This document shows, piece by piece, positions 6,035 through 48,560 of a stretch of DNA of 64,000 bases. How positions within the stretch are numbered: the first letter of the stretch is position 1; each line of letters begins with the position of its first letter. This DNA comes from Edaphochlamys debaryana (lineage: Eukaryota; Chlorophyta; Chlorophyceae; Chlamydomonadales), in the NCBI GenBank assembly GCA_016858145.1, contig JAEHOE010000033.1, positions 248,001 through 312,000 on the forward strand, read 5' to 3'. The notes under the pieces were generated by a model that ran no database searches, was not told the DNA's origin, and saw nothing but the letters and a program-made list of their open reading frames with translations. The position numbers were made by a program, and so were the translations under genes.

Positions 6035-9000
6035 CCCCCCTGACAGATCGACACCATCCCCCGGGGCACGTCCGTCATCCTCGCCACCCGCTACCCCCCC
6101 GGCACCACCTTCAACGTCACACGGATCAACTCCTGGATCATCCCCAGTGAGTTCAGGCCGTACGGGCCGTGCATCAGGCCGTACACCGGGCCGTACAACC
6201 GCATCAACTCCCAGCTCCCAACTCCCAACCCCCGATTCCAACGCCCAACCGCCTACCCCCGTCCCTCGCAGGTGACTTCCTCAGGCCCGCCAATAATTTG
6301 GCTGCCGTACTAAACAGCCCAACCGCCGAGCTGTACTTCTTCGACGGCAAGGTGCTGTACGTCAAGCTCATCGACACGTGAGTGTTCGCGGATGCCGTAT
6401 CCCGTACGCGGGACGTTTCTGCGGGATGGTCAGACAGGCGCCAGAGGCCGAGGCGCACCAGCGCTTGCGCCAGAGTGCCTGCCCCCTCCCAACCCCACCC
6501 TTGCAACCCTCTTCATCTTCTCCCCCCTACCAAAACCCTTCCTCGACCTCTTCTTCCCCCCCTAATCCTCTGTCGAGACAGCTACGAGCAGCCCTACCCC
6601 GGCCGACCCGCCGTGTCCATCCCGGGGGGCGTGTCGGTGCCCGGCACCCGTTGGGGCGACTACCGCTACCGGGTGGGGTGGGGGGCAGGGGTGGGGAGAA
6701 GGGGGGCTCTTGGGGGGTTCTTAGTTGCCTCGTGGTTCGTTTCGTGCGCATGCTGCTCACCCTAGACCTGGTAGCTCCCGGTGGGACCCCACCGTCTGAC
6801 CACTCGCTCCCGCCCTCCTCCCCGATACCCCCCGCCTGCCCCCCCCCCCCCCAGATCGAGGCCCGCTTCCGCTCCTGCGCCACCTCCCCCGCCCCCGTGC
6901 AGAACGGCAAGAACTTCGCGGCCCAGTTCTGTGCCATGAACGTGAGGGGGGGGAGGGGGGGGAGGGGGGGGAGGGGGGGGGAGGGGGGGGGGAGGGGGGG
7001 GAGGGGGGGGGAGGGAGGGGAAGGAGAGGGGAGGGAGGAGTCATACAGGATGCAGTGGGCCGTACGGTCCTGGCGCTGGATTGGATCGGCTCTCCCCTTT
7101 GCACCCCCATGTCGCTACCCATCCTTCCCGGTGCCAACCCTCCTCCTGTACTCCTTCCCCTTACTGCCTCCCCTTCCCCCTCTCCCCTCCCCCCCCCTCT
7201 CTCCCCCCTGACAGGGCACGGTGGACGACTTCCTCCCCCCCGCCATCACGGCGGCGTACGACCAGTGGCCCCTGCCCTCCTGCCAGGAGGTGGCACCGCC
7301 CTGTGAGGGGGGGGAGGGGGGAGGGGGGGAGGAGGGGGAGGGGGGAGGGGGGGAGGAGGGGGAGGGGGGAGGGGGGGAGGGGGGGAGGAGGGGGAGGGGG
7401 GAGGGGGGGAGGGGGGGAGGGGGGGAGGGGGGGAGGGGGGGGAGGAGGGGGAGGGGGGGGGAGGGGGAGTAGGCCCTGCCGTGTGCGTCCCGCTCTGGGG
7501 CTCGAGGCGCCTGTGGCCTGGGAAGCGGGGGAGCGGCTTAGTCACCTCGGTGTTAAGCTGGATGGCGCATATCCCCTCTTCCCTCCAGCTCGACTCCTCC
7601 CCCTCCCCCCACTACTCGCTCCCGCTAACTCTCAAACACCCTACAACCCCACCCCACCACCCCACCACCCCACCCACAGTCTCGGTGTGCTCCGCGCTCG
7701 GTGTGCCGGCCGCCAACTGCACCTGCACCGCACTGGCGGCCGCGGGGCGGTGCGGCGACACCAACCGCACGGGGCCCTTTGTGGCGGGGGCCTCGGCGGA
7801 GCTGCGGGCGCTGGTGCTCAAGACGCAGGTAGGGGGGGGGAAGGGGAAGACATGTAAGGGGGGGGAAGGAGGGAGTGGGGAGGGAAGGGAACGGCAGACC
7901 TGCGGGTTCCGGTGGATTAAGATGCAGGTGTGTAGGGGAGGAATATAGGAGGGAAGGGGACGGGGAGGACAGTGGCGTTGATTATTGAAAAGGGGGTAGC
8001 AGCGCCCCTCTGCTATGCCGCCCCCCTCACCTCAACCGCTTGTTGCCCCTTTCATCCCCTCCTCCCCTCCACCCCTCCTTCTCCCCTTCCCTCTCCTCCC
8101 CTCCCCTCAGGGTTTCTGCTCGGTCACGTGCAAGCGCTGTACGGAGGGGCAGCCCACGTGCGTGGACATGCCCATGCCATCCGGCCTGGCCAGCGAGTTC
8201 GGTGGGTTTCAGCTCGAGGCTGTCGACACACACACAGCTCGAATGGGTTTGGGCTTTGGGCACTCCCACCTCCCACAGACATGGCTTCACGCAGTTGCGC
8301 TCGCAAGGTCGCGGCACCGTGATACGCACGCGCATTGGTATCACGCACTGAGATCAAGATGCCAAGCATCCCAAGTCGACATTCCAAGCATCCTCTCACT
8401 TCGTCTTCGCAACCCCACCCCACCCTTGGCAGGCAACCGCACGTGCCCCCAGATGGTGAACCCCGGGTACTGCTACGAGGTGGGCCCCAAGGGCTACTGC
8501 GGGGCCACGTGCGGCGTGTGCAACAACCGGGGCCTGCCCTGCACCGACATGGTCAGCCGAACGGGTGAGCACGTGTGGGGTTTGGGGGGGGAAGGGGGGG
8601 GGTTAAAGGGGAACGCGTGGGTGTTTTGTGATGCGTGGGTGTGGTATGCATCGGCCGGGGCCTGCCCTGCACCGACATGGTCAGCCGAACGGGTGAGTGT
8701 AGGGGAGTGTAGGGGGAGGGGGAGAAGAAGGGAGGGAGAAGACGGGGAAAGCGGAGGATAAAGAAGATCGTGGTGCGTGGGGAGGTCGGGTGCAACAGCC
8801 CAGCGAGTTGGGAGGGAGAGGCAGAAGAACAAGGACGGGGAGAGGAGGGCCAGGGAAAAAGGGGGTGGTATGCAGGCCTATCCTTACCCCTCCATCACCA
8901 CCCCAACAGACCCCTGACAAGTCTCCCCCCTTCCCCGGCTCCCCCCTACACCCCCATCCCCCAACCCCCCCCACCACCACCAGACGACTGGAACTGCACT

Positions 9001-11214
9001 GACCTCAAGTCCTGGGGCTCATGCAACTCCGACTGGGTGCTGCGCGCCAAGTACTGGTGGGGCCTTGGGGGGGACGCGCTTGGGGATCGGGATCGTGGGT
9101 AGGGGTGTAGCTGTTGCCCCTCCTGCTCGGAGTGGCTGCCGTGTGCGCTGTCAGGGAGGGGGTCCGAGCCACGGACCGCACAATCCGGCACTCCGGCCTC
9201 GCCACCCGAGCCGTGGCGTCCACCGCCCCCTCCCTTTCTCGACCCCGCCCCCTCCCTTCCCCGGCTCGCCTCCACAGCCGGGCCACCTGCGGCGCCTGCG
9301 CCGGCCCCCCGCCGCCGCCCTCGCCGCCGCCCCGGCCGCCCATGCCCCCCCTGCCCAACCTCTACCCCTCCTCCTTCGACACAACCGCCGAACCGAACGA
9401 CGGTTACCGCATGTACTACGAGGAGTCGGACCCGCCCGCGTCAACCGACCCAACGGTGAGATTTCGTACGGCGAGATGACGTACTGCGCTGCACGCTCGA
9501 ACCAACTACCAACCGCCATGCAAATCCCCAAACCCACAACCGTCCCCCCCTCCAGGTGGTTTACGCCTTCGGCGACCCCTCCGCGGCCTATGGCGGCACC
9601 AAGGGCGGCCTTATGGTCAACGTGATCAAGCGGCCGGGGATCTACGACTGGCACGTGCAGCTGCTGGTGGGGCCCGGGGTGGGCCCGGCCGGGGCCTGCG
9701 GTGGGCCTGCGGTGTGACACGGGTCCCACACAGCAGCTCCGTGCGAGAATGGGCTGCCATCCCTTCCCTCACCTCCTCTCCCGTCCGCTCGTGTCGCCTT
9801 ACCTCCCCCGACCAATCAAACCCCTCTCAACAATACCCTCCCGAGCCAGCCAGCCGCGCTCGCACCTCAACCCCCTCACGCCCACCACCCACCCACCCAC
9901 CCCTTTCCTCACCCCAGGGCCCCGAGTTCGAGGTCGAGACCGGCAAGCTGTACACCTGGTGCCTGTGGATACGCCTGGCCAGCGACTCGCCCGCCGCAAC
10001 CACAACCAACTGGTTCGTGCTGCAGGTACGGCGAGAATATGCACGGGAAGCGTGCGATCAATCCCTGTGACTTCGCGTCAAAACACACACGCCTTGGCCC
10101 CCCCCCCCCGCTTTCACACACCCTTCCTCCACCCCCCAGAACATGACCACGTGGGAGTGGCTGGGCGCCAAGGAGTTCACAATCACACGCACGTGGGCCG
10201 AGTACTGCCTTAGTAACGTGGGCAAGCCGGCTGACAAGGCCATGTACAAGCACATCGCGGGGTGAGTCACGCCGTGGGCCTGATTGGGGCCCTGGTTGGG
10301 GCTTTGTTGGGGCTTTGTTGGGGCCTGGATCTAGGGTGCGGTGGACAGCACAGTGCGGGGTGGATGGCGCGGTATGCGGGCTCGGGTTGAGGTCCGAGTG
10401 TGGGCCGGTGTGGGCCTGGTCAGGCCCTGGGCCTGGTCGGGGCCTGGGGCTGGAATGCGCGTCCTCCCTTTCCCCACACCCTTCTCTCCTCAAGGAATGA
10501 CTCCTGGGTTGAGCAGACGGAGGCCCCACCCTTCCCTTGCAATGTAGTGACCTTGAAAGAAGGAATTACTAAGCCCCCCATCTCCCCCTCTCGTGATCCA
10601 GGTTCCGGATCATCATGGGCGACGTCGAGGCGAAATGGCACATCGACAACGTGCGGCGGCTTATGACTAATGCCCCCTCGCCGCCACCCGCCGGCAGCGC
10701 GTCCGCCCGCCTGGCCGCTGCGCCCGTCGAGCAGCCCGCCCAGGACCTAACCGAAACCCCAACCGTAACCGACACCACAAGCACGGCCGTAACAACCGAC
10801 GCCGTGCCGGCGGTTGCCGTACCCGAGTCTGCCTCAAGCTCGGACGCGAGCACCAGCGCCGACGCCGCGACCTCGACAACCGACACCAACGGTAACAACG
10901 ATAACGGTAATGGCAACGGCGGCGGCGGCGGCTCGGTCCCGACGGCGGCTGTCGTGGCGGCGGCGGTGGTTGGCGGCGCGGTTGCGGCGGCGGTTGCGGC
11001 GGTTGTGGCAGTTGTGCTGGTGCGCCGCCGAAGCCGGAGCCGTTCCCTTGTGGCCCCCGAACCCTCCGGCGCCGCCGCCCTCGCCAGCGGCCTCATCAGC
11101 ACTGGTGCCAAGGGCAGTGCCCAGGGTAGCGGCGGCGGCGGCGGCAGGGAGGTGGCGCTGGCGGAGCGCAATGCCGTCGTGCCGCTGCCGGTCGAGCCGG
11201 CCGGTAGAGCCTAG
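169..11214 (+). CDS. PKHD1/CEMIP-like beta-helix surface protein with ShKT-type modules, 3' part
   Basis: About 36 exons (roughly 1,290 codons) are visible, with the 5' end outside the window. The first exons (169-251, 399-516, 763-821, 1141-1229, 1377-1459, 1596-1715) encode motifs of the right-handed beta-helix region in fibrocystin/PKHD1L1 and CEMIP/TMEM2 proteins: EYQTEVVLLSRSI, MAYRMGQQYEIG and YPFHFHMAGN, then histidine- and asparagine-rich rungs. Exons at 7680-7828, 8111-8211, 8433-8564, 8994-9056 and 9278-9455 form cysteine-rich modules. The last contains the ShKT-like CRATCGAC ending and runs into a [12 protein letters not shown] hydroxyproline-type linker. Exons 9556-9666, 9918-10025, 10140-10261 and the start of 10602-11214 resemble a CBM4/9-like jelly roll (YDWHVQLL, YTWCLWIRL). 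The last exon ends in an Ala/Val transmembrane helix followed by RRRSRSRS, so the topology is probably type I with the bulk outside the cell. Intron 2842-3048 has a GC donor. The family call is firm for the beta-helix and weaker for the CBM. A G8 domain would lie upstream and is not seen. Confidence 0.8.
4182..4210. repeat. (CA)n microsatellite in an intron
   Basis: A short run of CA dinucleotides with interspersed CGCA lies in the intron between exons 4085-4117 and 4253-4443 of the surface-protein gene. Confidence 0.85.
5998..6031. repeat. 34-nt poly-C tract next to a 3' splice site
   Basis: An uninterrupted run of C occupies the polypyrimidine region of the intron whose acceptor TGACAG ends at 6046. 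It is the longest homopolymer in the window, so its true length is uncertain in any sequence read. Confidence 0.9.
6942..7030 (+). repeat. G-rich (GGGGGGA)n tract at a 5' splice site
   Basis: Directly after the donor of exon 6855-6941 the intron is a tandem array of GGGGGGA/GGGGGGGGA blocks. Many G4 runs make an RNA or DNA G-quadruplex likely by composition. Confidence 0.85.
7303..7470 (+). repeat. G-rich minisatellite of GGGGGGAGG/GGAGGAGGGGGA units at a 5' splice site
   Basis: About 165 nt of almost pure purine starts at the donor following exon 7215-7302. It consists of imperfect 9-21 nt units, potentially quadruplex-forming on the coding strand. It carries no coding content although frames stay open on both strands. 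Confidence 0.85.
8527..8697 (+). repeat. Duplicated exon end plus donor site (43 nt, spacing 128)
   Basis: Positions 8527-8569 (end of the exon with LPCTDMVSRTG plus GTGAG) recur exactly at 8655-8697. Between them lie the G-rich start of the intron and a GTG-rich stretch (GGGTGTTTTGTGATGCG near 8629). The second copy has no acceptor in front of it, so it is not a normal exon. Using its donor would retain intron sequence. Confidence 0.85.
10262..10601 (+). repeat. Intron with GGGGCTTTGTT and GGGCCTGG short tandem units
   Basis: The last intron of the surface-protein gene holds degenerate direct repeats of TTGGGGCTTTG (about 10288-10325) and GGGCCTGG/GGCCTGGTC (about 10412-10452). No coding or RNA signal was seen in it. 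Confidence 0.6.
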
Positions 11215-12263: not shown

Positions 12264-12268
12264 TGTAA
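12264..12268 (+). terminator. TGTAA polyadenylation signal of the surface-protein gene
   Basis: TGTAA is the standard chlorophyte poly(A) signal. This copy lies about 1.05 kb after the TAG stop at 11212-11214. The 3' UTR between (11215-12263) shows no long frame that resembles a protein. Confidence 0.6.
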
Positions 12269-12330
12269 CGCAGCGCCCGCGCGGACCCATCCATACCGGG
12301 CCCGCCACCCCCAGCTGCAAGGAGAGAGGA

Positions 12331-13255: not shown

Positions 13256-13300
13256 GTGCCTCCGGTCGCGGATCCAGATCTAGATCCAGATCTAGATCCA
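13256..13300. repeat. GATCCAGATCTA tandem repeat over the TOP6A stop codon
   Basis: Three to four near-palindromic GATC(C/T)AGATC units overlap the final TAG (13294-13292, - strand) and continue into the 3' UTR. Confidence 0.7.
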
Positions 13301-22837: not shown

Positions 22838-25800
22838 ATGCAGACGCCGCCCAGTCAGGGCCGGCCGCCGCCCGGGCCCTCGGGCGCGGGCGGCCCCGCC
22901 CCCACAGTCTCCCCCGACCTCTCCTCGGCCGCAGCTCCCTACAGCGAGATTGAGCCGCTGCTGCCCCGCGCGGGCAGCTACGGAGCCGGCGCCGGCGGTG
23001 GTGCCGGCGGGGGCGCGGCAGGGGGTGGCCGCGGCGCTGCGGTCGAGCCCCCCGCCGGGCCGCCGCCGCCGCTGCAGCCGCCTGCGCGCGCGACCTTCGC
23101 GATGGCTGCGCCGGCGGGGGCCGGGGCGCCGGGGCGCGTGGGAGGTGAGGCGGCGCGGCGGGGGGGGCGGGGAGGGGCCCACGGGTCTGACGGGCGCCCT
23201 GGCTCGGTGGTCTTGCAAGCGCTGGGTTGCAGCGAGGGATGGGATACTGCGAGGGAGAGGGGGAGGCCAGGGGTTGGGGTGCAGTGCCCCTTGAGCGTCC
23301 CCCACGGCCCGGCAGCTGAGTCGGTCTCCTGCTGTTGCTCCCCGCCCCTAACCCCCCCGCTCCCCTGCTTCCCCCCCCGCTCCCTGCTTTCCCCCCTCCC
23401 CTGCTTTCCCCCCTCCCCTGCGTCTCCCAGGCCCCCATGCGGCCGGATACTGGGCCCGCGCTAAGGCCAAGGCTCAGGTGGGGGGCGGGAAGGGGCCGAG
23501 GAGGAAGGAGGGACACGCGCTTGGGCCCCCCACCCTTGCGTACACTCTGGCCAGCCCTGCATTCCCCAATCCTTGGGTGTCCCCTCCCCCGTCCCCCGAC
23601 CGCCCCAGGCCCAAATGAGTGAGGTCCGGCGGGAGGCGGCTGGCAACGTGGCGGCAGTACGGGAGGCGGCACAGGTGGGACCGACTGGCGGGGGGAGGGG
23701 GGCCCTCCTAGGCCTGCGCCCCGGCTGGGTTCGCTTGCGGGCCGCCACACCCACGCGTCACGAAACCCACACGCCCCTCTTCCCCTCCCTCCACCCCCCT
23801 CCTCCTCCCCAGGAGGTGGTTGCCGCCGACGCCTCCCTCCGCCAGCGCCTGAGGGCGGCCGCGGGGCTGGTGGCGGCGGTGGACAGCGGCCCCCTGGCCA
23901 AGTGGGGGGCGCGGGGGCTGGTGTGCGCCTTCTACGTCAACCAGGTGGGGGAGCGGTGGGAAGGGAGAGGGGGGCTTCCAGGAGCGTGTGTGTTTCCTGG
24001 CGCGTGGGTGTTGCGATGCGCTCTCCTCTTTCCCAGGACGGGCGGGGCGGGGCGAGTTGAAGGAGTTGAAGGAGTTGCCAAGGAGGACCAGCACACATAC
24101 ACAGTGCCAATGCACCCCCCCTCTGGGACTTTCCGCCCGGGCCACCCGCGCAAGCCCACACCCCACACCACCTGCAACCACTGACATGACCAGTCCACAC
24201 CCCACCCCACCCCACCCCACGGCAGGCCGCCGAGGCCATCGAGACGTGGGCCCACCTCAAGGACAGCCCCGTGCGCCGCCGCTGGGCGAGCGACCCGGAG
24301 CCCCCGCCCCTGGCCTTCCCCTGGATCCAGGTGGGGGTGGGGTGGTGGCGGGGGCTTGGGGCTCGGGGGTTGAGGGGGTGGGGGCGATGGAGTGTGCAGC
24401 TGCCTGTGTCTGGGCCCCCAGCCGGGAGGGGGATGGAGGGGTGGGGGGGATAGGGGGGAAATGACCCGGGGCCGGGAGCAGAGAGGTGCTTGATGACCTC
24501 CGCCGGGGTGCCCCATGCGGCCATGATAACGGCGGTCAGCGAGCAAGGGACAGCTTCTCTTCATTGCCACGTGTGCGTGTGGGGCTCACCGCATCCCCTC
24601 CCCCTGCCGCCCCCTCTACTAACCTCGTAACCGAGGGTCCATATGACTCATATCAAGGCAATCCTTACCTCCTCTACCTCACCCCCCCCCCCCAGGTCTC
24701 CCTGTGGCTCCCCCTGGCCCTGCTCTGCCTGCTGGGCCTGGGCGTGCCCCTCACGGGGGGGGCCCTGCTGGCCAAGACGGTGTGGGAGGAGGCGGCGATC
24801 ACGTGGCGCCAGGTGGGGGGGGGGCAGGGGCAGGGCAGGGGGAGAGGGGGCAGGGGGGAGGGGGGCTCCGCTTACGCGAGTGGATAGGTGAGGGCCGAGG
24901 GGTGGGGACGGCGGGGGGACGAGCGATTGAATGAGCATGGCTGTATGCCGTGTATGAGGCAAGGGCGTGGTGAGGCTGACGGCTACAGTGCGTCAGTGCC
25001 TGAGCCCCTCCCCCGCATATCTCACTCCCCTGTTCCCCATCTGCACCTCCAGATCGTGACCGTGATCTGGTACGGCAGCCGACCCACCGAGATGCTGGCC
25101 AAGCGGCTTGCCATTGTGAGGGCCTGAGGGGGGGAGGGAGGGGGGAAGGCGAGTGAGGGAAATGAGGCAATCAAGGCCACGGCCACGCAGGCAGTCGCCT
25201 GTGCCCCAGTGGCACGCGTGTCACGAAACACACACGCTCTTCCCCCCTCTTCCCCCCTTTCCCCCCCCCCAGGTGGGCTCCACACTCCTGGTGGTGGCTC
25301 ACAGCGCCAAGGACAGAGCCCGCATGCGCAGCTACGCAGGTGGGGGGGGGGAGGGGCGAGGAGGGGGGGCAAGCGCAGGGCCGACATGTGTATGTGTAAA
25401 CTTAAAGGCCAGCGCGGGTCGGAGTGCAAGCAGATGGCTCCACCCCCTACCCGCTACCCCCTGCGGGGCTGCAAGCCACTCCCCACCCAATCCCCGCCTC
25501 CACCCCCACCCCCTCCAGGCATGCTCCTCTCCCCCGACCGCCCCTCCTCCGGCCCCTCCCGCCGCCGCTCCGCCGCCCTCCTGGCTGGGCGCCTGCTGCT
25601 GGCCTGCCTGCTGCTGTTCGCGGGCTGGAGCCAGGTGGGGGGGAGGGGGGGTGGGGGGGAATGAGGGGGGAAACGTGTGTTTAGGATGCGTAGGGTGGGC
25701 GCGTGATACGTATAAGTGCAGTTGTGAGCAGACAGGCCGCGGGGAAGAAGCCCCAGGCAAACCCGAAACCCCGAAGCAACGGTCCCGACCCGGTCCCGAC

Positions 25801-31159: not shown

Positions 31160-34100
31160 ATGCTGCTGGGTCTGGGCGGGCCCCCGGGGCTGGGGAGCGC
31201 TCCGCCGCACCCCACCGTCCCGGAGCCCCAGTCCGTGGAGCAGATCCTGGCCACGATCCAGGTACGGCAGTGCCGTACGGCGGTGCAGTCCGACAGGGCG
31301 GTACGGCAGGGCAGTACGCCTGTACAGCAGCAGCCGTGCCGGAGCGCTGAACGGTGTCGGCAGCGCTCGTCCTCCTCTGCAAATCCCTGCCTTCCTTGCT
31401 TCCCCTCCCCTCTTTCCACCCGGTCTCACAGCACCTGCCTCCTCCCCTCCCCTCCCCCTCTCCCCCCTTTCCCCCCCCCCCCAGGCCGCCCTCTCAAACG
31501 ACCGCGCCACCCGCACCCAGGCCGAGTCCCTGCTCCACGGCTGGGAGGCGGACGCGGCGCCGCACTTCCTGTCGGGGCTGATGCGCATCGTGGAGCAGCG
31601 GGACAGCGTGCCGGAGGTGGGGGCGGGGGGGCGGAGGGGTTTGGGAGGGGGCGTGTGTGTGTATTGGGAGGCGTTGGGGGGTGGGAGGGGGGCGTCTGTA
31701 TACATGAGGGGGCATTATGAATGCCTCCAGCCCGGCCAGGCAGAGGGGTTCGGCCCTTCCTCTGCCCAGCGGTGCGCTCTGCCTCTCCGCGTGCCGCAAA
31801 ACACACCCTTCCCTCCCCTCCCGCCCCCCCCCGCCCCCAGCCCATCCGCCTGCTGGCCGTGGTGGTAGCCAAGAACGCCGTGGGCTCCTCCTGGCGCAAG
31901 ACCCTGGGGTCGCGGGAGTGGTCCCGGGTGCCGGACAGCGAGAAGGCGGTGGTGCGGGAGGGGGCGCTGCAGCTGCTGCTGCAGGGTGGGTGGGGTGGGG
32001 GGGCTGGGGTGGTTGGGAGGGGGGGGAGTGTGTTTTGACACGGGGTGGTGCGGGTGAGATGGGGGGCGCTGCAGTTGCTGCTGCAGGGTGGATGGAGGGG
32101 GTAAAGGAATGAGGGGGATGGCGGGTGCTCGCTCACCAGTGCCCGTGCTTGGAGCGGACACGGCGGGGCGGCCTGGGTTGTCGCCAGTACCTCTGCTTGG
32201 CACGGTGGACTCGCCATGCTCATGACGCCCTTCCCCGCCCTCCCTCCCCCTCCCCCCCCAGACCCCTCCGAGCGGGTGGCCCTTCAGCTGTCCCTGCTGG
32301 TCACCAACATCGCCCGATTCGACTTCCCGGGGCGGGCGGAGAACCTGCTGCAGGTGGGGCGGCGGGGGCTGGAAGGGGGTGCTGCAGGTGGGGGGCTGGA
32401 AGGGGAAAGGGGGGCGGTGGCGGGGGTTGGAGGCGGGATGGGGCGAATCACAAACTGCAAGTGGGGCCGCCTGAGGGGGGAAGGGTTGAATCCCTCCATC
32501 ACCGCCCCCCCCCCAGGTGCTCCTGTCCGCCGCGGCGCTGGACTCTGCGCTGCCGCCCCCCGCCAAGCTGCGGGTGCTCAAGGCGCTGAAGCGGGTGCTG
32601 CAGGTGGGGCGGTGGGGGGTGGGGGGAGGGGTGGGGGGTGGGGTGGGGCCTGGGTGGCGGCTGGGTTGGGCGAGTGGTTAGGTGAGCCCGCATCTTCTGG
32701 TCCGGAATTTCAGTTGGCATGCACCGTGCCAGGGCCCGGGCTCTGCTGCGCCCGGCACGTGTGTCGTGTCACGAAACACACGTCTCTGAACACCCCGCCC
32801 CCCCTCCCTCCACTTCCCCCCTCCCCCCCCAGGGCCTGGGCTCCAAGCGCTTCGTCATTGAGGCGCCCACGCCGGGGCCCGCGGGGGTGCTGGCGCTGCC
32901 GGGTGGGGGGGCTGGGGTGGCGGGAGATCGCGGGTTGGGGGCGGGACGGGTGGGTGCCGAAGCTGTCAAGTGACAGGGCAGGGCAGCGCAGAGCGAGGGG
33001 GAGGTTGGTTGCAAGGGTAGGGCAGCGGCAGGGAGCGGGGTGGGGTAGGGTGGGTGTGTTTAGCTGGGCTAGCCCATCCCACCTTCGCGATCCCGCTCAA
33101 CCTCGAACGGCCCCTGCCCCCCTGCCGCCCTCCTCTCCCGCCCAGACCTGTCCGCGCTCTCTGCCCGCATCACGGCCGAGCGGGCCCTGTTCAAGTCCCG
33201 GCTGGGGGACTGCTTCTCGCCGCTTCATGCCATGCTCACCAGGACCACGGCGGCGTTCTGCGAGGGTGGGGCTGCGACGGGGGCAGGGGGTGGGGGCTGG
33301 GTGTTCGGTGGAGGGGGCGAGGGGGATGGGCAAGGCTACTTACGGGGTGGCGAGGCGGGGGGCGGAAAGTCCGCGGCAAGCTGACGTGGGGGGTCCGGAG
33401 GCTGGGAGGGGGAAGGCGGGCTGGGGGAAGGGGGCTGGGGGAAGGGGGGCTGGGGGAAGAGGGGGTGGGGGTGGCATTGACACACGGCCCAGCAGCGTCC
33501 GCGGCAGAGCCGCTGCCCCTGTCCTGGCCATCGGACGCGACCGCACCCTCCACCTCCTCCCGACTACGCCCTTCTGCGCCCCCCTCCGCAGGCGGCGCCG
33601 GCTGGGAGGCGGCCGGGCCCTACGCGGCCGCCGCCGCCGCCTGCCTGCAGGCCCTGCTCTACCTCACGCCCCCCTCGGCAAGCCAGGTGGGGCCTCAGGG
33701 CGGGACCGGGACCGGAGCCGGGTTTGGGTTCGGGTCTGAGCTCAATCGTGATGGGTTTGTGGGCGGGGGGGGGGGGTTGTGTCGTTGTGACGGCGTGGCC
33801 GCGCTAGGGGTAGGGCGCTGGCGAGGGGGTGCGAGCAGTCAGGACGCCCTCCCGGCCCCATGTGCTCTCCCTTTCCCCACCCACCCCAACCCCCTCCAGG
33901 ACGACCTTCCCCCCGGCACCGAGGACGTCCTCCACGCCATCCACGGGGGCTGCTCGGCGGTGCAGCGGGGGGCGCCGCAGGGTGAGGGGGGCCTGGGAAG
34001 GGCGGGGTGCTGGGTTCGGGCGAGGGGGGTGGGCGTGGGGTCTGGGGAGGGTGGGGCGAGGGGAGGGTGAGTCATGGGGTCTGGGCATATGCTGGGGGCC

Positions 34101-37100
34101 CAGGGCGCCCGTAGGGTTTAAGGCGCCCTTGGGGGCGCCTCCGCCTGTGTCTCCATGGACCATGGATGCACTTTCCCCGCATGCCCACCCCGTTTGACAT
34201 CGAGCGCTGTCCCGTCTGTAACCCGCTTGGAACGTCCGATGGCATTACTCACCGCCGCCGCCGCCCCGTACGTACGGTGCAGGCGTTACGGCGTCCGGCC
34301 CGTCCGCCGCCGAGCTGTGGTCGGACCAGGGCGGCAAGCTGTACGAACGGTTGGCGGCGCTCGCCATCGCCTACCTGGACTGCGCCGCGCTGCCGTTCGC
34401 GCAGTACGTGCCGTACTTCCTGGACTTGTTCGTACAGGTACGGACCGCCCTCCGTCCAGTCTCCCTGCTGCCAGCTGCTACGTCCCCTCCCTCCCTTGGA
34501 GCTGCCCCACATAGAGCTGCCTCCCTCACGCTCGCCACCGACGCCTCCTGATCTCCTTTGCATCGCACTCTCGGAGGCCCCACTATAGCCATCTAACCGC
34601 TCCATCCGGCCATCCCACAACAGCCCTTGCTCCTCATCCTGATTCCTTCCTCTCCTGATCTCTTCCCTGTCCACCCCCTCCCCCCTCTTAGTCAGCCCTG
34701 ATCGGACTGGACGCCGCCACCGTCCGCGCCATGCGGCCCAAGCGGCGCGTGCTGCTCGTACGGTTCATTAGTAAGGCCTTACTCAGCCCGTACTACCGAC
34801 AGGAGTGGGTGGAGGCGCCCGTGCCGGGTGAGCAAGGGGGATGGGTATGATCAGGGCTGCTCGTGTAAACCGGAGAAACAGGGCGCGGCTGAGAGCCGGC
34901 CAGCCTTAGATGCGGAATCGAATGGGTGTGGAGGGAGGGGGGGGGGGCGATTGCAGGGGAAACGCAGGTACCCACGGCTTGGACCCCCCTCGCCCAACCC
35001 TCCCTCTCATCCCCCCCCCTCACGCCTCTCTCTCCCCCCCAGCCGGCCTCCCCGCCGAGCCCCTCAACCGGCTCATGGAGAGCCGCGCGAGGGCGGCCCG
35101 GGCGCACGCGGCGCTGTCGGGGCTGCTGTCGGGGCAGACATGCGCCAGGTGGGGGAGTGAGGGGGAGAGGAGGGGGGTGAGGGGAAGATGTGTGTGTATT
35201 GCGTGTCAGGGCGGGGCGGCGGGGGCTGCTGTCGGGGCAGACGTGCGCCAGGTGGGGGGGGGGGGAGGGGCTGGAAAGGGCGGGATGTGAGGAGCGAGCG
35301 GAGCTGAGTGTGGATCGCGGCAGCCCAACGGGGGTTGGGTGGCCATGCAGGAGCAAGCAAACAAGGGGCGGGAGCCAACGCCGACTCACGTTCCGACCCC
35401 TCCCCCTCCCCCCCCCCAAGCCTGGTTGAGGCGCTGGTGGCCAAGTACGTGGCGCTGAGCGGGGAGGAGCTGGAGGAGTGGCGGGACGACCCGGAGTCGT
35501 ACGCAAGGTGCGGTACGGCAGCACGGGTGCCGCACTGCCGTACAGCGAGATTGCAGCGGGCTTCGAGCTCCCTCTCCGTTTGCAGTGATGGGGCGCAAGT
35601 CCCTTGCGCGCATTGACAAATTCGCCTCCAACTCGCACATCATCCCCCCCCTCCCCTCCCCCCCTGTCAGGACCATGGAGGTGGAGTCGGGCCCCGACGC
35701 CGACACCCCCCGCCCCATCGGCGTGGGCCTGCTGCTGTGCATGCTGGAGCACGGGGGGGAGGGCGTGGCGCTGGTGCTGCTGGGGCTGGCGGCGGCGCTG
35801 CAGGTACGGCAGATCCGGAATCTGTCGTACATCTGAAGACCTGGAGATGTGGAGATCTGAACCTGCAGCCTGGCTCTGCGTCTGCATCTGTGTCGCTAGC
35901 TGTGGGCTGGTCGCTAGCGGTGGAAAGTGACCCTCCAACTGGGCTGACTCCCTGCCCTCTGCCCTCTGCGACCCTGGGGGGGGCCCTGCAGGGGCGGCCG
36001 CCGGAGCCGGAGGCGCTGCTGCTGAGGGAGGCGTGCTACCGGTGGGGTGGGGTGGGAGGGGGGGGGAGGAGGGGGGGGAGCGAGAGGGAGCCGGGGAGGG
36101 AGCGTGCTGCTGCCTCAGGGGGTGTTACCCGTGTCTGGTGGACATGGACTCCCCGCAGCCCCTCAACACAGCTCCCCCCCCCCCCATCCCCCCCCCCACA
36201 CCTCCGCAGCTGCATCGGCGAGGGCTTCAACCACGTGTCCTCCCACATCAACTTCGCCGCCTGGTGCGTGCAGCGCGCTTGCGTCAGGAGGCAGCCCCCG
36301 GCCTAGCCGCTGAGGTCCTCGACCGTGCCCCGATCGCCGCATGCTCGGTCCACACGCCGTACTCAACCCCCATCCGTACGCTGCCGTACAGGTACAACGC
36401 CGAGCTGGCGCCGCTGCTGACGGCGCACGCGCCGCCGCCGCCGCCGCCGGGCGCCGCCGCGCCGCCGCCGCCGGCCCCCATCGGCGGCGGCAGCGGCGAG
36501 GCGGCGCTCATGGCTGCCGTACTGGCGGCGCGCGCGCTGTGGCTGCTGGGCGTGTGCGGCGGGGAGCTGCCGGGAAGCTGCATGCCGGGGGCGTACCAGC
36601 TGTGTGTGTGCTACCTGGCCTCAGAGGACGTGGTGGTGAGGGGGGGGAGGGGGGGTGGGATGACTAGTGGGGGGGAGGAAAGGACGAGGGGATGGGCGGA
36701 GGAGAGGAAGAGGGATGAGGGGGAGGAGCGGGAGGGGGAGGGTGGCACCGGGACCGGGTAGTGAAGCACGGCGTAACGGCGCCGGGCGTGAACGGCACGA
36801 GGAAAGAGGGAAAGACGGGAAGAGAAGGGGAGGGAAGAGAAGGGGAGGGAAGAGAGTGGGGAAGGAAGGGGCCACGGCGTGGTCTCTGGTGCAGCTTCTG
36901 ACCACAGCCCGGCCCCACCGCGCACTCCACCCTGTCCCTCCCCCCCCCCAGGTGGCCCTCTCCGCCGTCACTGCGCTCCTGGGGCTGCTGTCCCTGGTGC
37001 TGGACGACCAGGTGGGGGGGGGGAGGGGAGGGAAGGGGGGGTCATGAGGAGGACAGGTCCTGATGGGGAGGAGCTTGTGCGCCCCCTCTTGCCATGCGCT

Positions 37101-40100
37101 GCCCAGCTCGCCTTGCACCACACCCCACGCGTCACGAAACACACAGGCTCTCCCCCTCCTCTTCCCCATCCCTTTCCCCCTCCGCAGGCCGCCCTGGAGC
37201 AGCTCCGCGCCACGCAGCGGGCGGTGCAGGGCCGCGGGGGCGCGGGGGCCGCGGGGGGCCTGGTGGGGCGCGTGGACGCCATGCAGCTGGCGGAGAGCGC
37301 GGGGGCGGGGGGGGGGCGGGGCCGGGGGGGCTGGAGGCAGGGTCGGACGGCGGGCAGGAGAACGCGGGTGAGTGGGGGGCAGGGGGTGGGGAGGGGGAGG
37401 GTTGGGGAGAGGAAGGGGAATGAGGGCGGGGCGCGGGATGCAGGGGGGCGCAAGAAGGTCTGGAGGGGGTTGCGCTGGCAACTGCCTTGGCGAAGCCAAC
37501 CGCTCGTTCTGCCTTGTTCTGCGGTATGCCCCCTTCTCTCATTCTCCGCCCCCCCCCCCCCCACTTCCACCCCCACCGCCACCCCAGGGGCGATGGCGGA
37601 GGCCTCTGCCCGCGTGGAGTCGCGACTGGGCTCGCTCCCCCCAGAGGTGGGCCGGGGCCCGGGGGAAAGCGGGGGTGCCCCTGCTCCCCATGCTCCGGCT
37701 CTCCCTGCCCTGCCTGGGCGCCGTCCCGGGTGGCACAGAGGAAAGCGACAGGGGAAAGCGGGCGCCCCGCGGTTGCCCCCGAGGCAATGGCCCCCGGGAC
37801 ACGTTCCTCCTTGTCGGCTGGGCTCCTGTGCCACCGCCGCGCCCAGTCCCAGACCCTCGCATGTCGGCACTCCCGAACACCAAACAGTTTCCTCGTCCCC
37901 CCCCCCCCCCGGCTGTAACCCCCAGGTGGTGGCGGCGGCGCTGCTCAACTGCTTCGGACTGCTGGCCCGGCTGCGGCAGGTGGGTGGAGGGGTCAGGGGG
38001 GAAAGTGGGGGTGGAGCGTGTGGGTTTCGCGTGTCAGCAACGGGCCTACGGCCCGGGCACGGCTGCTTCGGACTGCTGGCCCGGCTGCGGCAGGAGGGGA
38101 CAAGGAGAGAGAGGAGGGTGCAAGGGTACCGAAAGCTTACAGGCGATTAGGGCCGTAGGCCCGCTCGAAAGCGGGGGCCTGCCGGCCACGGCGTGTGAGG
38201 AGCAGGGCGGCGGCGAGCGAGGAAAGGCCGTGCCCTGGGGCCTGCGGCTGCCTCGGCGCGGCTTTGGGTCTGCGGGCAGTGGCTGTTTCCCCCACGTTTG
38301 TCACGAGCACTGCCAAGAGCAACCCTCCAACCAACTTAGCAACCACCAACCGCCAACCGTGCCCCAGGTGGAGAGCATGGTCCGCGTGCTCCAGCTCGTG
38401 TCGGTGCTGGTGGAGGTGAGGGGGGGGGGGTAAGAGGCCGGTGGGGTGGGGAGGGGGGGCAAGGATGGAGGGAGTTCACACTGAGGGGCGCACTCCGGGT
38501 GCGGGCGTGCCTGGGCACGATCCGAAAGAGGGCAGGAGGCACAGGTGCACGACGGGTGGGGTGCTTCCGTAGCCGCCTTCCCCCCACGCGTTTCGTGCTG
38601 ACCAGGAACGCACGCTGTCTTCCCGCCATCTCCTCCCCTTCCCTTCCGCCCTCCTCCCCCCTCCCCCAGGCCTTAGGCGAGCGCATCAGTCCGCACCTGG
38701 GCATCATCGCGGCGGGGCTGCCGCAGGTGGGGGCGGAGGGGGGAGGGAAGGGGGTGCGAGCGGGTTTTACAAGCGTGATTGTCTCGCGGCACGCCGGAGC
38801 TGGGGAAGGAGGAGAACGGCCCTGGTGTCATTATGGGTACCCAGGCCTGGCGACTGGTGAGAATACCCTGCTTCCCGGCGGCCCCTAACCTGGCCGCCTC
38901 CCCCACCCCCCAACCCCAACCCCAGGTCTGGGCGCGCGCCGAAATGCTCTCGGCCGCCTCCGCCGCCGCCGAGGACGCCGCGTCCCTCCTCGACCGAGAG
39001 GCGTCGCGGCGGCGCGCGTCTGGCGCCGCCGCCGAGCCCTCCGGCGGCGCCGCCGCGCGCAGCAAGCCGGGGGCGCTGGCCGCCGCGCCGCCGGCCAAGT
39101 CCGGGTCCGGATCTCGGGAAACCGGGGAGGCGGGCGCTGTCGTACGGTTACACTCGGCCCTGATTGCCGTACTCACGCACCTGGTCGGCAAGCTCCGTAG
39201 CGTGGCGCTGGAGGATGCCAACATCTGCGGCGTGGTGTTCCCGCTGCTCAAGTACTCGACGCGGGTTGGTGAGTGCTTGTTGAGTGCTTGTTGAGGGTTT
39301 TTTGTTCTGAGCCGGGCCGGGGCGGGAATGGTTGAGGGTCGCGAAGGGGCAGGAGCGCATTAGGCGAGCGCCGATTGCGCCCAACTAGGACCCTGGAAGA
39401 TGTTTGGCAAAGCTGTTGGGAAGCGAGGGGAGGGGCAGTCTCGAAGGGGCTCAGTGCAAGACGGGTGCAGCACCGGTCGCAGACTCGACATGGGCAGGGG
39501 TGCGGGGTGGGTTGCGAGACACGGCTCTGGCCGGGAGGGGGACATATCGTCCTTTCACCCACCCACCACCCGCCCGCAAACCCACAACCTTTCCCCCCTT
39601 TCCCTAACCCCCAGGCTCCCCCGAGTCCGAGGTGCTGGTGGACGAGGCCTGGACACGCACACGCAATACACACGCTTTGCCCCCTCCCCCCTCCCCCCCC
39701 CTTCCCCCCCCAGGCTCCCCCGAGTCCGAGGTGCTGGTGGACGAGGCCTGGACACGCACACGCAATACACACGCTTTGCCCCCTCCCCCCTCCCCCCCCC
39801 TTCCCCCCCCAGGCTCCCCCGAGTCCGAGGTGCTCGTGGACGAGGCCTGAACACGCACACGCAATACACACGCTTTGCCCCCTCCCCCCCTCCCCCCTCC
39901 CCCCCCCTCCCCCCCAACCCCCAGGCTCCCCCGAGTCCGAGGTGCTGGTGGACGAGGCCTGGACACGCACACGCAATACACACGCTTTGCCCCCTCCCCC
40001 CTCCCCCCCCCTCCCCCCCCCTTCCCCCCCAGGCTCCCCCGAGTCCGAGGTGCTGGTGGACGAGGCCTGGACACGCACACGCAATACACACGCTTTGCCC

Positions 40101-43100
40101 CCTCCCCCCCTCCCCCCCTCCCCCCCCCTCCCCCCCAACCCCCAGGCTCCCCCGAGTCCGAGGTGCTGCTTTGCCCCCTCCCCCCTCCCCCCCCCTCCCC
40201 CCCCCCTCCCCCCCCAGGCTCCCCCGAGTCCGAGGTGCTGGTGGACGAGGCCTGGACACGCACATGCAATACACACGCTTTGCCCCCTCCCCCCTCCCCC
40301 CTCCCCCCCCTCCCCCCCAACCCCCAGGCTCCCCCGAGTCCGAGGTGCTGGTGGACGAGGCCTTCCGGCTGTGGTCCGTCACCATCGCCTCCCTGCCCGC
40401 CGTGCCGCCCCCCCTGAGGGAGCTGCTGCCCAACGCGGCGGCGCTGCTGCGGAGGGGCAGGGACGCGGCGGCGCTGCTGCCGCTGCTGGAGGTGGGGGGC
40501 AGAGGGGGAGGGGGGTGGGGAGGGGTGGGGGGAAAAGCAGGCAAGAGGAGTTCTCAGGGCCAGGGGAAGGCCTAATGTCACCAACTGCACCAACCGTTAC
40601 CAAATTGACACCAACCGCCAACCGCCACAGGCCTACCTGCTGCTCGACGCCGCCGACAGCCTCCAACCGCTGGCGGCCGACATGGGCCGCGCGCTGGAGG
40701 CCTCGATCAAGTCAACCGCCGCCGCCGTACTCTCGGCGGTTGGCGCCTCGCCGACGCCCCAACCGTCAACCTCCGGCGCGCCCGCGACCCCGCCCGGCGC
40801 GCCTGGGACCCCGCCGGGCCCAGGCCAGGCCCTGTCCCCGGGCCTGCCCGGGACCCCCGGGCCCAACTCCTCCATGGGGGGGGGGCCGGGGGCGGGCGTG
40901 TCCATCCCCCTCTCCGCCGAGACACCCGCGGAGGCTATGTCAGCGGCGGCGCTGGTGGACGTGTTACTGCAGCTCTTCCCGCCGGGCGGGTCCGCGTCCG
41001 CGAGCCCCGCGCAGGTACGGCGTGTGTGGTACGGCAGCGTGTGTGGTACGGCAGCATGTACGGATTGGGGGGCGTGTGTTTTGGCGTGCGTCTTTGTCCG
41101 GCACTCGGCTTGGCCAGGGGCGTTCTGGCGGCTGGCTGCGGCCGGCGGCCTGGTCTGGGCGTGCCGCGCCGTTGCCGACGCGTCACGGGGAAAGAGGCAA
41201 CGGCACGGGGAAAGAATCAGCAGGCCGAAGCCCGTCATTAGAAGCCGCTTTAGCCCCCGAACTCCCTTTTCCCTCCCCCCTCCCCCCCCCCAGCACGGCC
41301 CCGTGGTGCAGCTGGTGGCCCCCGCGCTGCGGCAGATGGCGGCGCTGCTGGCGCACCCCGCGGTGCCCTCGGCGGGCCTCAACGTGAAGATCATCAACAT
41401 CTTCGAGGGCTTCCTGGAGGTGCGTACGGCACTGTGTACGGCATCATGTACGGCGTCGTAAACGGGCATCTAGGTGTCTTAGGTGCGCGGCGGCGACTCT
41501 GGGCTCAAAACGGCTGGGTGCCAGGTTGGCTTGGGCCACCCTGACCCCGCCTTCTCACATCCTAACCGTCCCTGTCCCTCCCCCCTCCCCCCCTCCCCCC
41601 CCTGTCAGGTCCTGGGCCGCCTCTGGCTAATGTCCCCCACCACCTTCCCGGATCTGGTGGCGGGCCTGGACGCATCGGGATCCGCATCCGGCGGCGGCGG
41701 GCCGGTGGCGGAGGCGGCCGGCGGCGCCGACGGCGGCGGCGGCGGTGCGGCTGTGGACCGGCTCCTGGACCGATGGCTCACCATTGCCTCGGCGCGGTTC
41801 CTGGAGGAGGTCGTCGGTGAGTGGCTGAAAGGGGGGGGTAAAGGGGTGTTGGAAACCGCGCGGGTTGCCTGTACAGGGGGGAGGATTGTCTGGGACTGAG
41901 TGGTTTGCCTCTGCAGTGAGCAGGAGCAGCACACGGCAGCTTTGGCGGGAGGGGGAAAGGGGGGAAGGGATGGTGGGGCCGCAGACACGTGGCCGGCCCG
42001 GCGCGGTCCATGGAGGGGTTCGTGGGTGAGTGCCCTTGAGGGGGCCGGGGAGGAGGGATGACGAATTGGATACTGATGGAGCAGGAGAGGGCTTGGCGGG
42101 GGGCTGCAGGGGGCGGAAGAGGAAGGGAGGGGTGCCGCCACGGGGTGCCGCCGAGCGCTTGACGCAGGCGGGGGCGGGCGGGGGCCCAGCCAGGCGGGCT
42201 CCCAGCAGCCGCGGAGCGGGCAGGCAGCAGGGCCGCCGGCCGCCTCCACCCTTCGTTCAGCACCGCTCGTAGCTTCAGGACCATGTCCATGCTCAGCGCC
42301 GCCTCCCCGTCTGACACGCACACGCAATACACACCCGTTCCCCTCCACCCCCCCTCCCCCCGCCCCCCCAGGCGTCAAGACCATGTCCATGCTGGGCCGC
42401 TTCCGGCGCCGCATGGCCACGCTCTCCCTGTCCTCGCTGCTGCTGGCGGGGGCCTGCCCCGCACTCACGGAGCCGGGCAAGCTGCTGCGGCTGTGCAGCC
42501 TGGCGGTGCAGGTAGGGCGAGGGACGGGGGGGAAGAACGTGTGTGCTTTGCGGGTTTTGCGGGTATCGGGCACGTTGGGAGGGAGCCGGGCAAGCTGCTG
42601 CGGCTGTGCAGCCTGGCGGTGCAGGTAGGGCGAGGGACGGGGGGGAAGAACGTGTGTGCTTTGCGGGTTTTGCGGGTATCGGGCACGTTGGGAGGGAGCC
42701 GGGCAAGCTGCTGAGGCTGTGCAGCCTGGCGGTGCAGGTGGGGGGAGGGACGGGAAGGGAGGGGCAATCGCTGCCGTAGACTCTACTAGTCCGACGAAAG
42801 GAAGGGCAAGTAGGGGGAACGGGCACGGAAGCTGAGCTCACGGATGGGAACGGCTGCGCTGCTGATCAGCCGGATCACTCGCACACATACCGCGATGATC
42901 TTACCCCTCGCTCTCCCCCCCCCCCAGGCCCTGGCCGACGATGCCGAGTTCGCGGCCGACCAGTCCGAGCTCGACTCGCTGGACTTCGCCGCGGACCTGG
43001 CGGCGGACACGGTGGGGGGGGAGGGGCGGGGGCACGGAGACCAGGAGGGGCACGGACACAGGCCAAACGAAGCCATTGCTGCTCGCCCGCCCTTCACCTC

Positions 43101-45719: not shown

Positions 45720-48560
45720 TCAGCACCTCGCCAGCACGATGGACTGGTGCGTGGTCATGCCGTACTTGGACGACAGATCCGCCGCAGTCAGCAGTACGGC
45801 ATCCGTCCAACCGTTGTCACGCACCCTACGAGACACGGGCAGGGGGGGGGGGCGCATTAGAGTCAGCGGCCAGCAGCTGTGCCCGCCCCGGGTACTGAAA
45901 CGGCTGGCTCCTCAAGGGGTGACTCTTAGGATGCCAAGGCGGCCACAGTCAGTGTTCTGATGGGACTGAACGGGGTGACGGCGCCACGTCTGCCACAGGT
46001 ACCCTGTGCAAGCCTCAGTTCACCCCCTCCCTCAGGGCATCTTAGTCGCCCACGTCCCCCCCCCAACCACCGCCAGCCCCCTCCCACCCCCCTCCGCCCC
46101 CTCCCCCTCCCCACCTGGCCAGCGTGTCCGTGTCCTCCTCGAAGGTGGAGTGGAACAGCCGAGTGCCCCCCGCCGCCAGCGAGTCCCTCCAGGCGGGCGA
46201 GGGGGGCGTGGTGACCAGCAGCAGCGAGCCGGGGGGGGAGGCGGAGCGCAGCAGGCGCAGCAGGGCGTTGCCGGCTGCGTGTGTGTGTGGGGGGGGGGGG
46301 GGATTGAGGGGGTTGGGAGGGGGGTTGAGGGTGTGTTTAGACACGGGGGCCGGGCACGGAGGCGGAGCGCAGCTGGGCGTTGCCGGCTGCGTGTGCGTGT
46401 GGGGGGGGGGATTAAGGGGGTTGGGAGGGGGGTTGAGGGTGTGTTTAGACACGGGGGCCGGGCACGGAGGCGGAGCGCAGCTGGGCGTTGCCGGCTGCGT
46501 GTGTGTGTGTGTGGGGGGGGATTGAGGGGGTTGGGAGGGGGGTTGAGGGTGTGTTTAGACACGGGGGCCGGGCACGGAGGCGGAGCGCAGCTGGGCGTTG
46601 CCGGCTGCGTGAAGGGGTGGCTGCATGTGTGGCTTGGGACCCCCATGCGTTTGGCACCCATGCTCCCCCACCTCCCTAGCAGGCGCCACGTCCCGTCCCC
46701 CTCCCCAACAGGGCCCCTCCTGGCCCCCAACCCGCCCACCCTCTGCGGACAGGTAGCCGATCAGTCCCTCAGCCACCCACGCCGAGGGGCGGGCGGGGTC
46801 GTGGCCGGCGGATGCCAGGGCGGCCATGGCCTGAGGGGGGGGGGGCGGGGTGGAGAGGGGCAGGACAGGCGGTGGGCTTGGCAGCCATCGACCTGCTGAT
46901 GCCCTCGTTCTCGTTCCTCGGCCGCCTCGGACCCTGAAATTACGGTATACATGTCTCACCTCATCCGGCCGCCCCAGGTCCGACTGTACGAACACCCGCT
47001 CCACGCCGGGCCCGGGCGGGCCCAGGATCCGCGCCTTGAGCGCCTCCGTGGATCCTGAGTCCAGCTCGTACACGCGGAACGGAGATCCAGATCCCGCCGA
47101 GGGAGCCAGCGGAAGCCGCCAGGCGCGTGCGTCCAGGCCGGCCCCGACTAGCACCAGCTGGTGTGGTGGGGGGGGTGGGGGTGGGGGGGGTGGAGGCGGG
47201 CAGGAAGAGAGCAGGGGGAGGGGAGAGCAGGCGCAAGTTGAGGCACGGGTACGCAAAGTGCTATACCGCGATATCCGATAATCCAAGCATCAACCACGAG
47301 CACGAGCCATGCGTTGCTTATTTCCACTCCCCTAGGGTTAAAGCAAAGCGCAATGCAGCGCAGAGCACGATGGCACGCTTGGCGCCGGACTCCCCTATGG
47401 TAGCGAGATGTGGAACTCTGCTCCCGCACGCACAGCCCCCTGCTGACGGCCGCACCTGGCGGAGGCCCTCGCCAGCGCTGCCGCCGCCGCCGCCGTCCGC
47501 CGCCGCCGCCGCAGCGGCGCTGCCCCTCGCGACCGCCTTCGGGGGGGGTGCGGGGGGGGGAGGGTCAAGGTGGTGGGGAGACGGGAGGGGCGGAGGGGCC
47601 AGCGTATGCCGCTTACAGTGGGCGGGACCGGGCGGTCAACCCAGGACTCGAGGCGCGGGGATGGGGCCCCGGCGGGTTGCGGAAGGAATGCGCCAACCCC
47701 AAGCCGCACTCCCGGGTTTTCCCTTGCCCTTGTGTCACAATCTTGGGCCCCGCCCGCCCTCCCTCCTACCATCGGCCCCCCATCCGCCCTCCCTCTGGCC
47801 CCGGTCCCCCCTCCCATCTCTCCCTTCCTCCCATCCGCCCGCCCACCTGCATCAAGTGCTCGTCCACCTCTGCCGTACGGATGCCCACCACGCCCACCAT
47901 GACGGCCGCCTTGCCGTCCGGGGCGGCCTGCTCCTCGGGGCTCAGGCACCTGGGGGGGCCGGGCGCGGTAAATGGGGACCGTTGAGGTCGGCGGTTACGA
48001 TGGGGCGGGGTGGGCAGAGTGCCAGCAGAGACCGGCGGAGGACCTAGCCCATCACGGCAAGAGGCCCAGGGCAGCCCCAGGGGAGGCCCAAGGAAGGATG
48101 GGCCCAGCATCGTGTCGTACGCGGACTCACGTGTCTACGATCAGTTGGTCGAAGGATCCGTCATAGCGGGGGGAACCGTCGGGTCGGGGAAGCAGCTTGG
48201 ACGCCTGCGCCCTCCAGCGGGCGACCTGGGAGGTCAAGAGGGTGCGGTGGGGGTGGGGTGGGGGTGGGGGTGGGGGGGTCAGCGTGGCTCGTGGGAGGAC
48301 AAGGCGGGACGGGGTGGGTTTGCGTAAGGGTGGGAAGGAGACACGGAAGAAGGGTGTGGTGTGGAAGGGCACGGGCTGGTGGGGGTCGTGGTCCGGGTGA
48401 ACGGGTGTGGCCGCCGCCCCTGGGCCCCCCCAGCGTTGGCACTCAGCCGCGGAGCCGTCTCGAGGTCTCAAGCACCGGCACAGCTCACCTGCACAGCCGT
48501 CGCCTCAACGTCCGTAAGCTGCGCCTTCACGCGGGAGATCCCCCCATCATCCGCGGCCAT
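45720..48560 (-). CDS. SAM-dependent methyltransferase, LCMT/PPM (TIGR00027-like) type
   Basis: Eight exons (48560-48489, 48225-48131, 47949-47847, 47536-47456, 47157-46960, 46830-46740, 46274-46115, 45825-45720) give 301 aa, the usual size for this family. The SAM-binding motif I is VLVGAGLDARAWRL (residues 119-132). The acidic ribose-contact region is VYELDSGS. The conserved post-motif AEGLIGYL is at 203-210, followed by PPGSLLLVTT. The C-terminal GWTDAVLLTAADLSSKYG matches the family ending. These enzymes methylate carboxyl groups; LCMT acts on PP2A and the bacterial relatives on polyketides or unknown substrates. The substrate here cannot be inferred, and no transit peptide is obvious. 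Exon 4 is an Ala/Gly repeat. The acceptor of exon 7 is followed (in + coordinates) by three extra copies of the exon edge. Confidence 0.85.
46236..46610 (-). repeat. Four-copy tandem array of an acceptor site plus exon start in the methyltransferase gene
   Basis: On the + strand CCGGCTGCGT, the complement of the acceptor ACGCAG plus exon start CCGG, occurs at 46271, 46383, 46491 and 46601. Each copy is joined to GGAGCGCAG...GGGCGTTG, and the copies are separated by G-rich DNA and GGTGTGTTTAGACACGGG. On the coding strand this reads exon-start copy, CCGTGTCTAAACACACC, C-rich tract, CAG, next copy. The three upstream copies share a deletion in the Leu/Arg codons that the real exon lacks. Confidence 0.9.

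Follow-up and report, generated by a model that had tools for sequence, protein, structure and literature searches.

Duplicated splice junctions in Edaphochlamys debaryana: probable target-site duplications of retro-insertions beside G-rich intron ends

The window analyzed here, a stretch of 64,000 nucleotides on contig C33 (991,671 bp) of Edaphochlamys debaryana, contains four genes in which an exon edge is repeated together with its splice site. Their Pfam content is unrelated (CEMIP/G8, SURF4-like, importin-beta N-terminal and leucine carboxyl methyltransferase), and the importin-11-like gene model matches the NCBI protein HYH03_007693 (Edaphochlamys debaryana) with 94% identity over its full length. 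An additional minus-strand gene at 13292-17143, which carries the short motif discussed below at 15602, encodes Spo11/topoisomerase VI A domains. A previous sequence-only reading had listed nine places at which an exon edge and its splice site are copied locally, and such copies were seen at all nine. Eight of them are given here, while the ninth, at 25588-26568, is described below as the type case.

8527..8697, plus strand: donor-side junction duplication, unit 128 bp, CEMIP/G8 gene
31960..32095, plus strand: donor-side junction duplication, unit 102 bp (96 by a second aligner), importin gene
35119..35258, plus strand: donor-side junction duplication, unit 103 bp, importin gene; single copy in four relatives
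37949..38098, plus strand: donor-side junction duplication, unit 114 bp, importin gene
39608..40363, plus strand: acceptor-side array, about 7 units of about 99-112 bp, importin gene
42274..42404, plus strand: acceptor-side junction duplication, unit 98 bp, importin gene
42469..42754, plus strand: donor-side array, 2.5 units of 113 bp, importin gene
46255..46611, minus strand: acceptor-side array, about 3 units of 108 bp, methyltransferase gene

The annotated protein of E. debaryana contains one copy at 35118 and one at 42471, as do its counterparts from C. incerta, C. schloesseri, V. africanus and C. reinhardtii. At 39615 the annotated E. debaryana protein comprises 17 extra residues that are absent from the same four relatives. 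Since all four relatives have a single copy at 35118, 39615 and 42471, the extra copies at these places are intronic. The 17 residues of HYH03_007693 (GSPESEAPPSPRLPRVR) derive from the array at 39608-40363 and probably represent an annotation error, a caution that array copies can slip into gene models. Within 42274-42754 a single exon has both of its edges duplicated, each outward, and an exon in locus L037 shows the same arrangement.

To place these duplications in a wider context, gene models were obtained with a purpose-built small HMM gene finder, trained on 302 kb of the same genome. The 302-kb sample comprised 84 kb of C33 including the window, 60 kb of contig C118 chosen for its array, 11 loci chosen by motif matches and five loci (50 kb) chosen blind to the motif. 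It yielded 527 introns with a median of 218 nt, next to a median of 198 reported for E. debaryana (PMC8226300). Introns start G-rich and end C-rich. Exclusion of 40 introns of the C118 array left 487 introns, and 970 intron ends had enough exon for testing. A copy of the last 50 exon bases was found near 72 of these 970 ends, while none was found when exon edges were exchanged between genes (0/970). If inserts of up to 1 kb were permitted, 79 ends were obtained, which fall into 43 places (28 donor-side, 15 acceptor-side); one of these clusters is probably false (C33 20833, an RGG-repeat coding exon) and a few long-distance ones are doubtful (e.g., C118 32968), all being retained in the counts. 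The duplication unit over the 43 places has a median of 114 bp, with 101 and 128.5 bp as the other quartiles. A scan for local repeats with a spacing of 40-300 gave 113 cases. A predicted junction is crossed by 41 of them; 40 fall within introns, 14 within exons and 12 between genes, 5 link an exon to an intron and one links an exon to intergenic sequence. Among the five motif-blind 10-kb loci 2 of 65 introns carry a duplication, which is thus not peculiar to the window. An assembly artifact as the source is not supported, since the assembly is based on long reads (142.14 Mb in 527 contigs, PacBio with Illumina correction; PMC8226300) and since units within arrays vary. The genome searched in this study comprised 141.9 Mb in 502 contigs.

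Some duplications form long arrays. Two are very long: L012 (C118:273423-277496) has 39 units of about 107 bp, and in L035 (C9:844343-847752) the motif occurs 29 times on the acceptor side at intervals of about 122 bp. On C9 there are also five motif copies on the donor side, at 129 bp. Units differ in the length of their G-runs. Eight consecutive units of the C118 array reappear with their variant codes at lags 11 and 13; the array therefore expanded through duplication of several units at a time, not through independent insertions. A different word, GGTTGGCGGTTGG, occurs at intron ends of C118 and C33 in eight separate 2.5-kb bins and resembles a short tandem repeat.

The short motif was scored by its core, GTGT followed by TTTTG, TTTCG, TTTAG or ATTG, after masking of most array repeats. 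Of the matches no farther than 110 nt from an intron end, 41 point inward and 8 outward (p = 2e-6), so that the GTGTGTTTTGCGTGTC-type motif reads inward from both intron ends and its strand is, as had been proposed, set by the splice side; this orientation is a direct observation. Elsewhere, intron interiors contain 10 matches, the 72 kb of intergenic sequence 8 and the 79 kb of exons 2. The reversed motif, employed as control, gave 3 inward, 2 outward, 8 interior, 2 intergenic and 2 exonic matches. At the intron ends of the five motif-blind loci the motif was not found (0/65, half-intron count). The mirror arrangement of donor and acceptor sides is real as well: read outward from the exon, both sides present splice site, G-tract, motif and exon-edge copy in the same order. 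The motif, described earlier for each spacer, lies between the copies in 19 of the 43 duplications, whereas 24 lack it there. The comparison of these 19/43 duplications with 35/891 other ends (Fisher p = 3e-14) draws on a pool that includes the motif-picked loci; the same comparison gave 8/12 against 13/422 for C33 plus the five motif-blind loci and 4/17 against 13/215 for C118 (p = 0.03).

Introns without any duplicated edge carry the motif too. Of those listed previously, it was read in the sequence at 10081, 25216, 28638, 32769, 37133 and 41068, while it is weak at 5912:

10079..10088, minus strand: motif in single-copy intron, acceptor side
25224..25233, minus strand: motif in single-copy intron, acceptor side
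28641..28651, plus strand: motif in single-copy intron, donor side, preceded by a B-like end (see below)
31617..31840, plus strand: intron with the motif inward at both ends; exon-edge copy not found
32772..32781, minus strand: motif in single-copy intron, acceptor side
37135..37144, minus strand: motif in single-copy intron, acceptor side
41073..41083, plus strand: motif in single-copy intron, donor side

Introns with the motif at both ends, such as that at 31617-31840, amount to only 4/487, for which reason RNA pairing between intron ends was rejected as an explanation of the motif. Throughout the genome the subfamily GTGTTTTGCCGACGCGT has 79 copies (control 0), partly in local runs with spacings of, e.g., 109, 114-116, 129 and 134 bp. 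The form GTGTGTNNTGCGTGTC, recognized first, has 59 copies against 7 in the control, 38 of the 59 within one C118 array. The looser CGTGTGTTTYG gave 395 matches against 190 in the control; thus about half of its matches are background.

The most informative case is the duplication at 25588-26568, in which an insert between long direct repeats is directly visible. The repeats are labeled here as copies of a putative target-site duplication (TSD):

25588..25666, plus strand: TSD copy 1, 79 nt, with exon edge (to 25634), donor and G-tract
25667..25676, plus strand: GGGGAAACGT, between TSD copy 1 and element A
25677..26450, minus strand: element A, dispersed, 774 bp, fixed end at 25677; RNA sense taken as minus strand
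26451..26486, plus strand: 36-nt piece with the motif GTGTGTATTGCGTGTC, between element A and TSD copy 2
26487..26568, plus strand: TSD copy 2, 82 nt, with one additional CTG

The spacer had been described as G-tract plus motif; the motif is indeed present, yet most of the spacer is the 774-bp dispersed element. Its end at 25677 would correspond to the 3' end of an RNA, and GGGGAAACGT is possibly the cDNA of an RNA tail, because it is missing from TSD copy 2. GGGGAAAG words point inward in 47 cases and outward in 4. Together with the extra GGGGAAACGT they suggest RNA tails with C-rich ends able to pair with the G-tract, but the words would also fit ordinary C-rich acceptor tracts.

Element A is dispersed: among 185 candidates 40 were scored, with 94-100% identity and the window included, and exact copies of its end number 122 in the genome (control 0). 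Its far part gave only 15 matched stretches including the window, and three of the others (on C49, C141 and C108) extend to the far end seen in the window. Eleven copies were read, counting L042 and L044 as one copy and L003 and L038 as the window. All 11 match from query base 1 over lengths of 68-774, one of them running off the fetched stretch; the query start was chosen by hand, and a query begun 9 bases earlier gave starts at 1-12. With this fixed end and variable length, as observed, element A shows a one-sided truncation pattern and behaves like a retro-insertion. Direct repeats flank 6 of 10 testable copies (79, about 51, 40, 21, 17 and 11 nt), of which the 17-nt repeat was found by eye and overlaps the element end by 4 nt and the repeat of about 51 nt lies within a small array; at the other four none was seen. 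As judged by eye, the fixed end of 8 of the 11 copies is directed toward a donor or acceptor no more than about 110 nt away, while no exon edge was recognized beside the copies in L043 and L047. In L046 (C12 near 1239216) the fixed end abuts an apparent exon start on the other strand, where element A may supply the acceptor AG. Inspection by eye revealed neither inverted repeats at the ends of element A nor, within its 774 bp, a long open reading frame readable as reverse transcriptase. A DNA transposon or MITE was rejected, given ends that are not inverted repeats and repeat lengths that vary from 11 to 79 nt. No known RNA family of Rfam, Pol III type heads (tRNA, 5S, 7SL) among them, matched at gathering score in the window; therefore element A is not classed as a SINE.

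A second fixed end, B (GTGTTCAGGGCTGCTC), has 247 copies in the genome (control 0). Forty of 211 candidates were scored and, the query's own place aside, their matches begin at positions 1-11 of the 125-base query and stop at 47-75. Pieces are also chained, as judged by eye: A is followed by the motif in the window and in L041, a B-like end by the motif at 28638, at C33 -4135 and in L021, and L021 near 3140-3233 shows the order B-motif-A-motif. A genome search for RVT_1 domains gave 712 candidates, 150 of which were scored; many have long open frames and none is linked to the ends studied. When 76 of the 150 listed RVT_1 places were compared with 50 A and 100 B places, one pair lay within 12 kb and in the wrong orientation, so that a partner reverse transcriptase beside A or B was not found among the places compared. 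Penelope-like 'Chlamys' elements were considered as possible candidates.

One arrival can be observed between two paralogs on C118, which share 97.0% identity over 6,981 aligned bases and differ by eight internal gaps of at least 15 bases. Two of the eight are junction duplications in copy A, of 98 and 109 bp. At the first (98 bp), paralog B contains neither the second copy nor the motif, whereas paralog A comprises the old G-tract (with an internal loss), a 37-nt piece ending in CGTGTGTGTTTTCCGTGACG and the exon from 30 nt upstream. Thus, the motif arrived with the duplication. A source of the 37-nt piece was not found in the sampled loci. At the second (109 bp), the motif is already present in B, and the new copy in A breaks inside the motif and carries GGGCGGGG; slippage or repair fits this event as well as retro-insertion does. 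Since these duplications differ between paralogs of 97% identity they look recent, and the evolution of intron ends might consequently be tested by strain comparison.

How did these structures come about? We consider it probable that the junction repeats arose as target-site duplications in the course of target-primed reverse transcription. The G-rich strand would be nicked a few tens of bases into the intron, and its 3' end would prime cDNA synthesis on template RNAs with 3' ends of the type ...AAACACACG plus a C-rich tail. Synthesis would proceed away from the exon, and the copies would mostly be incomplete, while several could be joined end to end. The cut in the second strand would fall as far as about 100 bp back, in many cases some 35 nt within the exon, and fill-in would leave exon edge, splice site and G-tract repeated on either side of the insert. 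With a repeat long enough to cross the junction, the exon would keep a complete splice site beside it and the insert would be spliced out; with a shorter repeat, lost within the G-tract, the motif alone would remain in the intron. Some repeats would have grown into arrays later. As the G-rich strand runs outward from the exon at either splice site, insertions at donors and acceptors would be mirror images. Hence, if priming occurs on this strand, the orientation, the mirror symmetry, the copied exon edge and the motif in single-copy introns all follow from one rule. The RNA templates (including the short motif as reverse-transcribed RNA), the nicked strand, the priming by tails, the enzyme and the splicing at the outer copy are what we infer here. 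For LINE enzymes, switching from one template to another and strand cuts staggered over long distances, 126 bp in the case of R9, have been described (PMC6895275). Several observations fit target-primed reverse transcription badly: the 24 of 43 duplications that lack the motif between the copies, motif pieces that are always short with a long copy of the motif RNA not found, four element-A copies without visible repeats, and a partner enzyme not found among the RVT_1 places compared.

DNA repair without reverse transcription would start from offset nicks that flank the G-tract, followed by fill-in and polymerase-theta-like end joining with filler copied from other loci. Duplication plus filler is its expected product, reportedly in plants (Schiml et al., 2016), and the variable, GC-rich filler past the motif, the second paralog event with GGGCGGGG alone as filler and the missing motif in 24/43 duplications would all agree with it. 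Yet the filler stems from families with one fixed end, the other end being truncated, always inward, and 774 bp would be long for a filler, so that we regard repair as an unlikely explanation. Replication slippage, in which a new G-rich strand folds, slips back by about 110 bp and recopies the junction, may well account for the growth of arrays and for duplications that lack the motif, as the duplications adjoin G-tracts on either exon side, many have no insert and G-run length varies within arrays. It leaves unexplained how dispersed exact motifs and element A came to lie between the copies and how 37 nt missing from paralog B arrived with the copy; as a general account, slippage is therefore quite improbable.

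The sequence-only reading had considered an introner-like origin. As introners with terminal inverted repeats, the introns themselves would be inserted DNA transposons and the motif their inverted end. Although some introns (that at 31617-31840 and two more) do have inward motifs at both of their ends, only 4/487 are of this kind; the intron is older than the insert in the one paralog pair available, as paralog B has the intron without the duplication, and past the motif no sequence is common to unrelated introns at the places compared. What is shared is an insert inside the intron. Because the introns already existed, this is not an introner, and such an origin, rejected on the one-sided motifs and the paralog comparison, is hardly credible. 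That reading had also pointed to an element or repair process that recognizes intron ends. Its templated process is supported, as dispersed sequences with a fixed end were copied into sites, inward from the exon edge, with one arrival visible between paralogs; the introner-like nature is not. The strand dependence would need no factor that recognizes intron ends if cDNA is primed on the G-rich strand.

Beyond target-primed reverse transcription as such, one might speculate about a retroelement system that lands at G-rich exon borders, where the C-rich 3' tail of an RNA pairs with the G-tract and a long junction-spanning TSD rebuilds the splice site, so that every insertion near an exon would be spliceable at once. 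We hold this to be conceivable but doubtful. In its boldest form the templates would include spliced-out introns, whose C-rich 3' ends carry the motif, feeding back to lengthen intron ends. Under the main reading, target-primed reverse transcription, short copies resembling retroelements appear to insert beside exon edges and to duplicate the splice site in doing so; the added DNA thus comes to lie in an intron and leaves the protein intact. Mobile DNA could in this way settle a few tens of bases from coding sequence at low cost, with its own duplication restoring the splice site. For the Chlamydomonas lineage this would provide a concrete origin of longer introns, of spare splice sites and of minisatellites at junctions. 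As a signature, the repetition of an exon edge across its own junction can be searched for in any genome.

Tandem duplications from offset nicks, of the polymerase theta type, comprise a direct duplication with filler between the copies. The filler between copies is shared with our cases, in which it comes from dispersed families with a fixed end and an orientation. An account of junction-spanning retroelement TSDs in this lineage was not found among the titles and abstract openings of the open literature, where introners and long TSDs are treated and direct repeats of 4-30 bp near splice sites are described (PMC11782384). The non-LTR retroelement R9 of rotifer rDNA likewise has a very long stagger of 126 bp (PMC6895275), a likeness of working only: R9 is rDNA-specific according to its published title, whereas here exon borders are hit, the repeat at element A measures 11-79 nt and a splice site is rebuilt. 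Green algal LINE/SINE pairs (RandI, L1, RTEX; SINEX of Chlamydomonas) likewise include non-autonomous members with fixed 3' ends, and some of the LINEs end in (CA)n tails (PMC3747384); the putative tail here is CACACG in a G/C-rich context. The word 'introner' is absent from the report on the E. debaryana assembly (PMC8226300). Introners are likewise repeats in introns of many genes, and their TSDs may include splice sites (Gozashti et al., 2022; PMC9860276). However, introners create introns and have TSDs of 3-9 bp (PMC9860276), whereas in E. debaryana existing introns are lengthened and the repeat comprises up to about 80-100 bp of exon plus intron.
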